DNA of 36,258 nt from a virus: positions 1 through 36,258 of IMG/VR virus record IMGVR_UViG_3300042090_000050. The stretch is one strand, 5' to 3'. The notes beneath the pieces were generated by a model. The model did no database searches, had not been told where the DNA came from, and saw only the letters and a program-made list of their open reading frames with translations. How positions within the stretch are numbered: the stretch's first letter is position 1; every line of letters starts with the position of its first letter. Made by a program: the position numbers and the translations under genes. Positions 209 through 3,745 of the stretch are shown here, one piece after another.

Positions 209-415
209 TCATGATTCAGTCTCCTTTTTAAGATTGTTAGCAAGGTCTGCTTGGTCTAGTTCAAGGTTTTCGGCCTGGTTAGCTTCCCAGTCCTCGTCGT
301 CAACGGTTCGGTAGTCTGGTTCGATCCATTGACAGGACTCACACCAGTCCAAGATCTCGTCCTCCCCGGCCGGAATTGTTTGAATTTCCTCGTCGCAATG
401 AATACAGAGTCTCAT
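209..415 (-). CDS. small acidic zinc-ribbon-like protein, 68 aa
   Basis: The N-terminus carries two CxxC knuckles, CIHC (residues 4-7) and CESC (25-28), suggesting a single zinc site; the C-terminal half is very acidic and probably helical. Its ATG overlaps the stop of the upstream gene (ATGA at 412-415), and a GGAGAG Shine-Dalgarno lies about 7 nt upstream, so it is the second gene of a two-gene leftward unit. Small zinc-ribbon proteins are common phage accessories that bind nucleic acid or host proteins. No specific function can be assigned. Confidence 0.75.
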
Positions 416-1278
416 AATACACTCTCCAATACGGCTTTAGCATCGTCTAGTCGGATACGGTGACAGCCAATGGTAACCGTCTCGCCGTCGAATTCAGTCA
501 ATTGAAAACCTCCAATTTTAGCTTGACCTAAGATCAAACCCTCGGCCTGTCCAGACATCAAGTCTTTAAGTAATACAATCGCGTCTTTAAGTGGGACTTG
601 TGCACCTTGAGTTGTTTCAACCGTTTCGCCGGTGATTCTAATCAACTGAGGGCGAATCAAACGAAGGGCGTCAGTCAAAGGTCCACCAGACTTCCATGCG
701 GCTAGGTCTTGTTCGGCTTTGACTCGTAACGCGGCGTCTTTAATCGCGCGTCGCTCGTCGTATTTACGGTCACACGCTTGGATATACGCATTAATCCAGG
801 TTTTAAGATCATCTGGGACTTCGATTCTCATTTTAGGTTGTTTAAGAAGGTCACAAAGCATATTGAAATTCTCAATACGTTTCGCCGTCGCGCCGTGATC
901 GTTCCATCCGCGTGTAGAATGAACGCGTTTCGTGAATACATCAAATATACCGGATATGATATCGTCTTGAGTTTCAAGTAGAGTTTGATTCAAGTCCGTC
1001 GGATCAGAGCTTGAAAAATGAAGTTTATGGTATACCGCTTGATTGGCGTATGATTGATGTTTTGACGTCGTGACTGAATACCGCGTTGAGTTTATTACAG
1101 CAATTTCGCGACCTTTGACAACGTGTATACGGCCTAACAAGTAATGTCGACCGTATGAGTACACGTCCAAACCTTCGAAAAACACATTGCTGCACCTAGC
1201 ATCGGACTGCGATTGGTTAGCCCAGAGGTGCAGGACTTGGTCGGCGGTGGAATAAACCCGTTTCATTCGTTTTCCCAT
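412..1278 (-). CDS. conserved phage hypothetical protein, 288 aa
   Basis: The N-terminal 100 residues hold VYSTADQVLHLWANQ, then SYGRHYLLGRI, a short strand AVINSTRYSVTTSKHQ and YANQAVYHKL. From memory this pattern resembles an uncharacterised protein seen in several tailed phages. The middle is helical, and the C-terminus ends in a beta-rich GETVTIGCHRIRLDDAKAVL segment. The first ATG is preferred over the one four codons later because AGGGAGA lies just upstream of it. It is the first gene of a leftward pair with 209-415, behind a candidate sigma-70 promoter at 1299-1327. No enzymatic motif is visible. Confidence 0.8.
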   Translation of the reverse strand: MGKRMKRVYSTADQVLHLWANQSQSDARCSNVFFEGLDVYSYGRHYLLGRIHVVKGREIAVINSTRYSVTTSKHQSYANQAVYHKLHFSSSDPTDLNQTLLETQDDIISGIFDVFTKRVHSTRGWNDHGATAKRIENFNMLCDLLKQPKMRIEVPDDLKTWINAYIQACDRKYDERRAIKDAALRVKAEQDLAAWKSGGPLTDALRLIRPQLIRITGETVETTQGAQVPLKDAIVLLKDLMSGQAEGLILGQAKIGGFQLTEFDGETVTIGCHRIRLDDAKAVLESVL

Positions 1279-1397: not shown

Positions 1398-1994
1398 ATG
1401 AGAACCATTGAGCGTGACGCATTACCTTCAGATATACCGTTCATTTACTCGACGTGGTTGAAGTCGATTAGGTATGACTCCGCGTTGGGTAAGGCGTGTA
1501 GAAACTCCGTGTTTTTTGATACGTATAAGCTCGTTATTGATAGAATCTTGCGTGATCCTAATACGATTGTACGCGTTATAACGGCGGAAGACGCGCCGGG
1601 AACGATATTTAGTTACGTCGTCCGCGACGCGAAAATCTTACACTTTGCATATACTAAGGAAGATTTCCGCAGGTTTGGTTTGGTGAGACGGTTGGTCGGT
1701 GGGTTACCCATCCCCATCACGCCCCCTGCAAGCCCCATGCCACCCGTCCCTGGCACGTCCCTTGCTACTGCAAACATCACGCCAACGCAGTCTGGCACGC
1801 ATCTTGCACCCCCTGCAAGCCCCATGCCAGCCCCCCTCCCTGCAAAAAGCGAGCCACCCCCTAATGGAATGAGCCCCAGGTCGATTATATGCACCCACAA
1901 AACTTTTTTAAGTCAGCCAATTTTCGATAAGTATGCGGAATTAGTGTATAATCCGTTTTTACTCTACAAGGGAGTGCCCGAAAATGAAGGTTAA
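1398..1994 (+). CDS. GNAT-like phage protein interrupted by a proline-rich segment, 198 aa
   Basis: Residues 1-101 look like the N-terminal part of a GNAT acyltransferase-like protein that recurs in podoviruses: SDIPFIYSTWLKS, a central helix, GTIFSYVV, ILHFAYTKEDFRRFGLVRRLV. The last piece corresponds to the strand and helix that hold the acetyl-CoA pyrophosphate loop, here degenerate (RRFGLV). The C-terminus, RSIICTHKTF then KYAELVYNPFLLY (162-190), fits the end of the same family. Between them, about residues 104-158, lies a Pro/Ala/Ser-rich stretch that is probably not part of the fold and is encoded by the repeat array at 1727-1856. Phage members are often head- or tail-associated or have no known substrate. 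It is the first rightward gene; its ATG has only a weak ribosome binding site. Confidence 0.75.
   Translation: MRTIERDALPSDIPFIYSTWLKSIRYDSALGKACRNSVFFDTYKLVIDRILRDPNTIVRVITAEDAPGTIFSYVVRDAKILHFAYTKEDFRRFGLVRRLVGGLPIPITPPASPMPPVPGTSLATANITPTQSGTHLAPPASPMPAPLPAKSEPPPNGMSPRSIICTHKTFLSQPIFDKYAELVYNPFLLYKGVPENEG
1727..1856. repeat. array of six 16-bp sigma-54-like motifs in mixed orientation, inside a coding region
   Basis: Forward copies are TGGCACGTCCCTTGCT (1751-1766) and TGGCACGCATCTTGCA (1793-1808). Reverse copies, read on the plus strand, are TGCAAGCCCCATGCCA (1727-1742 and, identical, 1814-1829), TGCAAACATCACGCCA (1769-1784) and TGCAAAAAGCGAGCCA (1841-1856). All six share TGGC and TTGC(A/T) ends at fixed spacing with a variable middle. 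The two forward copies match the sigma-54 promoter consensus TGGCACG-N4-TTGCW exactly. Copy starts are 24, 18, 24, 21 and 27 bp apart, all multiples of three. The first and second, and the third and fourth, copies can pair as hairpins with 8-nt loops. A 21-bp exact direct repeat (1722-1742, 1809-1829) contains two of the copies. Confidence 0.85.
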
Positions 1995-2030: not shown

Positions 2031-2264
2031 ATGAGCAAAGTCTATGTAAAGGTTGTCCACCTCCATACCGGGTCGCCGGCGCTTGGCGGTAAGCTTAGCC
2101 TGCAGGCTACCAAGAACAACACCCTTGAAGTAACGCCGGAAGGGATTAAAGCGGTCTCCAAGGCTAGTAAGCGTTGTATCCTCATCCCATATTCGAACGT
2201 GGTCGACTGCGAACTGTATTATCAAGAAGCCGCCCAACCGGCCAAACCTGTGGATAACGGTTGA
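2031..2264 (+). CDS. small conserved protein upstream of terminase, 77 aa
   Basis: The protein is a compact mixed alpha/beta domain with alternating hydrophobic strands (VYVKVVHL, KLSLQAT, CILIPYSNVVDCELYY). The sequence LEVTPEGIKAVSK...LIPYSNV is the kind of small phage protein found before terminase genes. A strong AGGAG ribosome binding site lies 7 nt before the ATG, and the stop overlaps the TTG start of the terminase (TTGA). By position it could be a small packaging accessory, but it has no visible helix-turn-helix and is short for a classical small terminase subunit. Function unknown. Confidence 0.8.
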   Translation: MSKVYVKVVHLHTGSPALGGKLSLQATKNNTLEVTPEGIKAVSKASKRCILIPYSNVVDCELYYQEAAQPAKPVDNG

Positions 2265-3745
2265 AGCCAACTGATCTAGACCTTATAGGCGAAGTCCTCG
2301 CCGAACGGGTAGCCCCCAAGGGATTTGACCTGAAGTCTATCTGCTTTCCCGAGCAGTTAGCCTTTATCGAGGACCCCGCGGACTGGGTAACCGGTTGCTG
2401 CTCCCGCCGGAGCGGTAAAACGGAGGTATGTGCCCTGGACCTCCTGAACACCGCCTTGAGTAACAGCGGCGCAGTCTGCCTGTACATCACAACGACTAGG
2501 CTGAACGCTGAGCGTATTATCTGGGCTAAACTCAAGAACTTAAACGAGAAATACGAACTCGGGGGTAAAATCAACCAGGCTAAACTGAGTATATCCTTCC
2601 CCCATATGAACTCAGTCATATACCTCTGCGGCTGTAAAGACAAGAACGCCCTGGACAACTTCCTTGGTTTAGGCTTAAAACTCGTGTACATAGACGAGGT
2701 CCAAAGCTTCCGGAAGTTCATTGGAGAACTAATCGATGACAAACTGGGACCAACCCTTGCGGACTATCGTGGAAAGCTTAAACTCATTGGGACACCCGCC
2801 GCGCTTAAGTCGGGATACTTTTGGGATACGCTTCAATCTAAAGTATGGTCACATCATCATTGGACATTCTGGAACAACCCCTTCATCTCCAAGACCTCAG
2901 GACTTACCCACCAACAAATCCTCGACCGCGAACTCAAACGCCGGGGAGTAGATGTTAACCATCCGAGTGTACAGAGGGAATGGTTCGGGCTTTGGGTTAA
3001 CGACACAGAAGCATTGGTACTCCATTGGGGACCTGGTAATAATTACCAGACATTGCCGGAACTTACTGATTACGTTATTGGGGTGGACCTTGGTTTTGAC
3101 GATGCCGACGCTATCTCGGTACTCGGCTGGCACAAAAACGAGAAAACGTGCTACCTTGTCGACGAGATCGTCAAGCCGCAGCAAGGCATTACTCCGCTTG
3201 TTGCCCAAATCGAGGCCGCCATAAAACGATACAAACCCCTCAAAGTCGTAATAGACCAGGGTGGCCTGGGTAAGAAGATCGCGGAAGAACTCCGGAAACG
3301 CTACAGCCTCCCTATCGTCGCCGCGGAGAAAACCCGTAAGATCGAGTTCTTAGCCCTCCTGGACGACGCCCTGCGCACTAACTGCCTTAAAGCCAAGGGT
3401 ACGAGTCAGTTCACCCAGGACTCATTCGTAACAGAATGGGACTTCGACAAGACCACGCCGGATAAGAAGGTGGTTAAGGCGGACCCCCACTCTGACATCA
3501 TCGACTCCGTTCTGTACGCCTACCGGGAAGCCTTGCACTGGCTGGGCGAGCCGGCCAAGCCCAAGGTCAACATGAAGAACACTGCGGAACGAGTTGAGTT
3601 CACACGTAAACATCTGGAAGAGAACCTTCAGAAACAAATCGACGCCCAGCAAGCCCAGGAAAACGACGAACTGTATTTCGCTATGCAGGAACTTGAGGAC
3701 TCCCGTGATGTGGGGCGCTACTTCATTAATCGGAGGAAAGGATGA
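2261..3745 (+). CDS. terL: terminase large subunit
   Basis: This is the ATPase and nuclease of the DNA packaging motor, which docks on the portal, pumps DNA into the prohead and cuts it. The N-terminal ATPase domain has a Walker A loop CSRRSGKT (residues 47-54) and Walker B LVYIDEV (141-147). The C-terminal RNase H-like nuclease has acidic residues in VIGVDLGFDDAD (D276), VVIDQGG (D332) and HSDIIDSVLYAYR (D412/D415). At 494 aa it has the normal length. TTG at 2261 is the only start available, because a TAA lies two codons upstream in frame; it is coupled to the previous gene by TTGA. A separate small subunit was not recognised. Confidence 0.95.
   Translation: MKPTDLDLIGEVLAERVAPKGFDLKSICFPEQLAFIEDPADWVTGCCSRRSGKTEVCALDLLNTALSNSGAVCLYITTTRLNAERIIWAKLKNLNEKYELGGKINQAKLSISFPHMNSVIYLCGCKDKNALDNFLGLGLKLVYIDEVQSFRKFIGELIDDKLGPTLADYRGKLKLIGTPAALKSGYFWDTLQSKVWSHHHWTFWNNPFISKTSGLTHQQILDRELKRRGVDVNHPSVQREWFGLWVNDTEALVLHWGPGNNYQTLPELTDYVIGVDLGFDDADAISVLGWHKNEKTCYLVDEIVKPQQGITPLVAQIEAAIKRYKPLKVVIDQGGLGKKIAEELRKRYSLPIVAAEKTRKIEFLALLDDALRTNCLKAKGTSQFTQDSFVTEWDFDKTTPDKKVVKADPHSDIIDSVLYAYREALHWLGEPAKPKVNMKNTAERVEFTRKHLEENLQKQIDAQQAQENDELYFAMQELEDSRDVGRYFINRRKG

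Follow-up and report, generated by a model that had tools for sequence, protein, structure and literature searches.

The window analyzed here, a whole virus record of 36,258 bases, raises the question of why a protein-coding gene should contain six sites that resemble the binding sites of σ54 (RpoN) and point in both directions. Genes for a terminase, portal, DNA polymerase A, DnaB, Rad52, YqaJ and lysozyme are present in the window, and a search based on its terminase and portal found no close cultured relatives. The array is placed in the first plus-strand gene past a divergent operon junction, just upstream of the terminase (Table 1).

Six σ54-like sites within a GNAT-like gene

The −24/−12 consensus of σ54 is TGGCACG-N4-TTGCW. 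All six 16-mers described in the sequence-only reading are found at the positions and on the strands it gave (Table 1), and the TGGC-N7-TTGCW sites run from 1727 to 1856 in the orientation order −+−+−−. Both forward copies match the consensus exactly, as had been claimed, and each reverse copy departs from it at one or two positions. The start spacings of 24, 18, 24, 21 and 27 bp were confirmed, with every site beginning at codon position 3 of the open reading frame. The TGGC...TTGC(A/T) motif proposed earlier stands, but its N7/8 gap does not, as the spacer between TGGCNYG and TTGC is constantly 4 bp. The window contains 8 matches to TGGCNNNNNNNTTGC (1.16 ± 0.96 in shuffles), 6 of them in the array region, and none to the backwards control pattern. 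No comparable array was found elsewhere in the window, as first noticed, and a search for dispersed copies of the array 16-mer across the window found none, all copies being at one locus.

Table 1. Features of the array and its surroundings in the window (positions in the 36,258-base record)
Feature	Position	Strand	Sequence or family	Remarks
Divergent neighbor	412..1278	−	phrog_7247	with 1398-1994 marks the divergent operon junction
Host ORF of the array	1398..1994	+		198 aa, GNAT-like fold
Array-bearing insert	1710..1877	+		~57 proline-rich residues, absent from three homologues
Site 1	1727..1742	−	TGGCATG-GGGC-TTGCA	1 mismatch to σ54 consensus
Site 2	1751..1766	+	TGGCACG-TCCC-TTGCT	exact σ54 consensus
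Site 3	1769..1784	−	TGGCGTG-ATGT-TTGCA	2 mismatches
Site 4	1793..1808	+	TGGCACG-CATC-TTGCA	exact σ54 consensus
Site 5	1814..1829	−	TGGCATG-GGGC-TTGCA	1 mismatch
Site 6	1841..1856	−	TGGCTCG-CTTT-TTGCA	1 mismatch
DnaA box	2249..2257	−	TTATCCACA	perfect; ~390 bp from array; single box, may be chance here
Terminase large subunit	2261..3745	+	phrog_2	downstream of array

The array is far beyond chance and is not a by-product of the proline-rich peptide. For every possible 4-gap-4 dyad we counted the copies that do not overlap, over both strands, and took the highest count, a general test that corrects for post hoc choice of the motif. The array region yields 6 copies, whereas 2000 codon shuffles or dinucleotide shuffles yield at most 3; shuffled sequence, the check named in the sequence-only reading, thus never gives as many matches. 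Synonymous recodings that keep the protein (three kinds, 2000) reach only 4, so the motif is not forced by the peptide. The encoded peptide is xGTxLA for the forward copies but xAxxxP for the reverse ones, with no peptide motif common to both orientations.

We therefore find it barely credible that the array arose by chance, through codon bias in a linker rich in proline, or as a mobile micro-repeat inserted in frame like the Rickettsia palindromic elements. The segment is indeed rich in proline and C, and all sites share one codon phase, but chance and a protein-driven origin are rejected by five nulls and the two orientations give unrelated peptides. The micro-repeat, which had been put forward as an option, also fails on the lack of dispersed copies in the window and on the mostly intergenic position of the arrays in other phages. 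As a general explanation this group of readings is refuted by the nulls together with the at least 120 viral loci and 0 backwards matches described below.

Searched alone by sequence against phages, viral_contigs, Pfam, PHROGs and PDB, the product of 1398-1994 matched no relatives; these were reached only via the DNA polymerase and a two-sequence profile. A structure model of the product (mean pLDDT 55) has the strand and helix order of GNAT, its best PDB matches are GNAT acetyltransferases, and the insert is modelled as coil placed between helix 3 and strand 5. GC content is 64% in the insert and 44% in the remainder of the gene. Three other phages (G037, G044 and G060) proved to have homologues, which align with the gene on either side of the array. 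It had been asked whether homologues keep a proline-rich segment that lacks the motifs; all three lack the entire 57-residue segment, and hence the protein does not drive the array. Homologues of this GNAT-like gene lie at the same place upstream of the terminase in several divergent phages and fall outside Pfam and PHROGs.

The genomes of G037 and G060 contain zero TGGCN7TTGCW sites. G044, which has terminase, portal and capsid families in common with the window, carries its own array in an intergenic position ~1 kb upstream of the GNAT-like homologue. Being intragenic in the window, intergenic in G044 and absent from G037 and G060, the array is gained, lost and relocated, whereas the genes remain. 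We propose that the window array grew in frame within a loop of the GNAT-like protein while the reading frame remained open, which would account for the single codon phase. The restriction of the window spacings to multiples of three has a joint chance of ~0.014 given the general spacing distribution and fits stepwise in-frame growth.

Recurrence and geometry of the array in viral contigs

The array is a recurrent phage-wide element, not local to the window, and is specific to viral contigs. When 2.9 million viral contigs were scanned for a single convergent pair, at least 119 loci were identified, and many of those listed carry arrays of 4-12 sites; array counts from these collection scans are lower bounds. 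The strict three-site (+−+) pattern occurs at no fewer than 120 viral loci and, across 257 Gb of genome sequence from bacteria and archaea, on one 4.3-kb contig. Its backwards version was found at 0 loci, and the strict pattern with a 5-bp spacer gave 0 arrays in viral_contigs. Removal of near-duplicates among the arrays listed left 89 non-redundant arrays, in which the median is 6 sites over 147 bp. In 34 array-phage records we counted 132 forward and 135 reverse exact sites (control matches, 3), those listed being mostly at one locus per genome. Among the distant relatives of array phages, 18 cultured or complete ones were checked and none has a TGGCAYRNNNNTTGCW site; an array is thus not known from any isolate.

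The sole bacterial-genome match is a contig binned as a Verrucomicrobiia MAG (L128), which has four sites at 137-211 and another pair at 1761-1810; no PHROG match was found on this contig, which may be either phage or host DNA. A genome of jumbo-phage size (G045, contig L122, 353,765 bp) carries ~8 sites at 77431-77746, with further sites up to 81440, which shows that small podovirus-like genomes are not the only carriers of the element.

Most arrays lie close to the divergent start of the operon that contains the terminase, and this position bears on whether they serve as packaging (pac/cos-like) recognition sites for the small terminase subunit, which we regard as improbable. Among the arrays listed, 81 of 127 have a gene for the terminase large subunit no more than 5 kb away, typically 0.7-1.9 kb downstream of the array, and several contigs start or end at arrays. 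However, the same array is found in phages with unrelated terminases (phrog_2, phrog_9 and phrog_15), many arrays have no terminase nearby, and relatives package their DNA without an array.

Contigs that start or end within an array comprise L031 and L040 (both ends of one 36,563-base contig), L074, L039, L047 and L080. At these positions, either the assembly broke at the repeat or the genome truly ends.

Neighboring sites alternate in orientation in 395 of 470 cases among the arrays listed. Convergent pairs are 17-21 bp apart, a range set in part by the search pattern, and tandem pairs start at 25-29 bp, a range that the pattern did not set. Back-to-back pairs, whose distances were likewise free of the pattern, fall into preferred distances (21-26 bp, 102; 27-31 bp, 3; 32-37 bp, 54; 38-42 bp, 1; 43-50 bp, 15). 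The spacings in the window are all typical of arrays in general. This helical phasing exceeds the needs of a plain decoy and may indicate an ordered nucleoprotein complex. An RNA hairpin was considered and rejected, as there is no base pairing between the N4 positions of convergent sites.

Likeness to σ54 sites and the probable reader of the array

Base preferences were computed from 201 sites unforced by the query. Position 5 is A (0.99), position 6 is C or T (0.49/0.50), position 7 is G or A (0.62/0.35), and positions 16 and 17 are W. The corresponding values for 29 intergenic sites from σ54 ChIP in Salmonella are A5, 1.00; C/T at position 6, 0.59/0.38; G/A at position 7, 0.66/0.34; and W/W (PMC3844500). 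The array preferences thus match those of the mapped Salmonella σ54 sites almost value for value. Within arrays, the spacer from TGGCAYR to TTGCW is 4 bp in 412 cases, versus 0 for 1-3 and 5-7 bp. In one aligned family (23 arrays), conservation is 98% in the site cores, 72% in the N4 and 74% in the spacers between sites. The sites therefore have the GG and GC elements at invariant spacing, as well as the A5, Y6, R7 and W16 preferences, that are looked for in a σ54 site.

In the form TGGCAYR-N4-TTGCW, with Y6, R7, W16, W17 and a rigid 4-bp spacer, the sites are like bacterial σ54 promoters. The arrays differ from these in having multiple copies (median 6) in ~150 bp that alternate, partly converge and are helically phased, and in being located in phage DNA with mostly no adjacent gene start. 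Intragenic σ54 sites in E. coli and Salmonella are likewise consensus-like sites within coding sequence (PMC4591121, PMC3844500), but they are single, whereas the window array is inserted in frame as an extra protein segment.

A protein family common to all 14 array-phage genomes was not found, the best being DNA polymerase (8/14), and no σ54 DNA-binding domain is encoded in 26 array-phage records. Together, these results indicate that the reader of the sites is probably a host protein. We consider a host factor, most likely the σ54 of the host, to be the simplest candidate for this reader.

Candidate functions: promoters, RpoN sink and replication origin

It is unlikely that the sites are working σ54 promoters that fire both ways from the divergent junction to express phage operons. 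Their −24/−12 elements are of consensus quality, the recurrent flanking gene families all point away from the array, and σ54 promoters located inside genes are known from both E. coli and Salmonella (PMC4591121, PMC3844500). However, half of the sites face each other at 17-21 bp and would block one another, this distance leaving no room for two holoenzymes on both. In 37 of 47 arrays the terminase-proximal site, far from facing the gene at promoter distance, is aimed away from the operon, as it is in the window, where 4 of the 6 sites oppose the gene; the doubt expressed in the sequence-only reading about real promoters was sound. The distance from array to first gene is 206-440 bp, against 27-154 bp for known σ54 promoters (PMC3844500), and in some families σ70 motifs of the TTGAC...TATAA type lie in this interval. 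A match to the bEBP domain (PF00158) was detected in only 1 of 36 array records, and is weak, although bEBPs of the host may take this role.

The weak PF00158 match is located in a 372-residue open frame (L193, G022:10025-10177). At L010:8448-8660 and related loci in several families, the interval from array to first gene repeatedly contains G-rich tracts (GGGGGAGGGGG-like) followed by TTGAC...TATAA-type σ70 motifs.

We give even chances to the array being a cis-acting sink, or decoy, for host σ54 (RpoN) or its RNA polymerase holoenzyme. A decoy or titration array for host σ54 was among the options first listed for the window, and it is the one favored by the evidence, as a putative sink judged from sequence comparison. 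The presence of the cluster in more than 100 phage contigs and almost never in bacterial genomes suggests that phages capture or soak up σ54. An RpoN sink would also account for the density of the sites, their consensus quality, the balance of orientations, the free position of the array and its restriction to phages. As looked for in a titration locus, the sites are near consensus and form one array per genome, which is intergenic or intragenic.

In the proposed mechanism, the 16-mers are predicted RpoN sites in both orientations, packed as densely as the protein allows, and RpoN would bind the array. After replication, the sites on phage genomes would outnumber the RpoN molecules of the cell, and σ54-dependent host genes for nitrogen and surface functions and the phage-shock response would be shut down. 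Alternatively, inactive holoenzyme may be parked on phage DNA. Counting against a sink, a single incoming genome brings only ~6 sites. The wider claim, which we hold with slightly less than even confidence, is that many unrelated phages carry a phased, alternating array of consensus σ54 sites, at times accompanied by clusters of DnaA boxes, that sequesters RpoN, perhaps also DnaA, in the infected host, as a protein-free sponge able to lodge even in a coding gene, where the added protein segment is tolerated.

The loci that titrate DnaA, such as datA and other DnaA-box clusters, soak up a limiting host DNA-binding protein through sites clustered in cis. The phage array is likewise a cis site cluster proposed to soak up such a protein, but its target would be σ54, it is phage-borne and its sites alternate in orientation (DnaA titration is reviewed in PMC5835720). 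We found no phage DNA-element class built from σ54 sites in the open-access literature searched. If RpoN binds the arrays, they would represent a takeover strategy that needs no protein, in which replicated copies titrate a scarce host sigma factor. RpoN-dependent functions, which govern much of the cell surface (PMC3162934), would then be a repeated target of lytic phages. The arrays are easy to search for and might help predict RpoN in the host of a phage.

The surroundings of the arrays also raise a reading that we consider rather doubtful, in which the array belongs to a replication origin of the phage or to some other nucleoprotein hub, with alternating iterons beside DnaA and IHF sites, bound by host σ54 as an architectural factor or by an initiator. 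Iterons at plasmid and phage origins are fixed-length, helically phased repeats, at times located in a coding linker or beside DnaA boxes, and those of the phage lambda origin lie inside the coding linker of gene O. The arrays share these properties, but differ in that one motif spans unrelated phages with no common initiator, in mixed orientation and with the consensus of a host sigma factor.

Perfect DnaA boxes occur at 0.276/kb within 500 bp of arrays and at 0.009/kb elsewhere (27 near arrays, 6 in 665 kb elsewhere), a 30-fold enrichment that speaks for an origin no less than for a sponge. In ~ten phages the boxes form tandem clusters. IHF-like sites are enriched 4-fold near arrays, and the helical phasing and the single array per genome at a divergent junction also agree with an origin. 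On the other hand, DnaA boxes accompany only ~10 of the 89 nonredundant arrays, and the relatives G037 and G060 replicate without an array. The array phages (14 genomes) have no initiator-like family in common, although very divergent initiators could be missed, and, were the sites read by another protein, their σ54 base preferences would be coincidental. The sink for RpoN and the origin can coexist, for example as a hub that captures several host DNA-binding proteins.

Tandem TTATCCACA clusters are located beside or inside arrays at L169:4055-4169, L149:4026-4073, L160:1119-1178, L053:1013-1070 and L113:2024-2043. Such clusters are either an origin or a second host-factor sponge.
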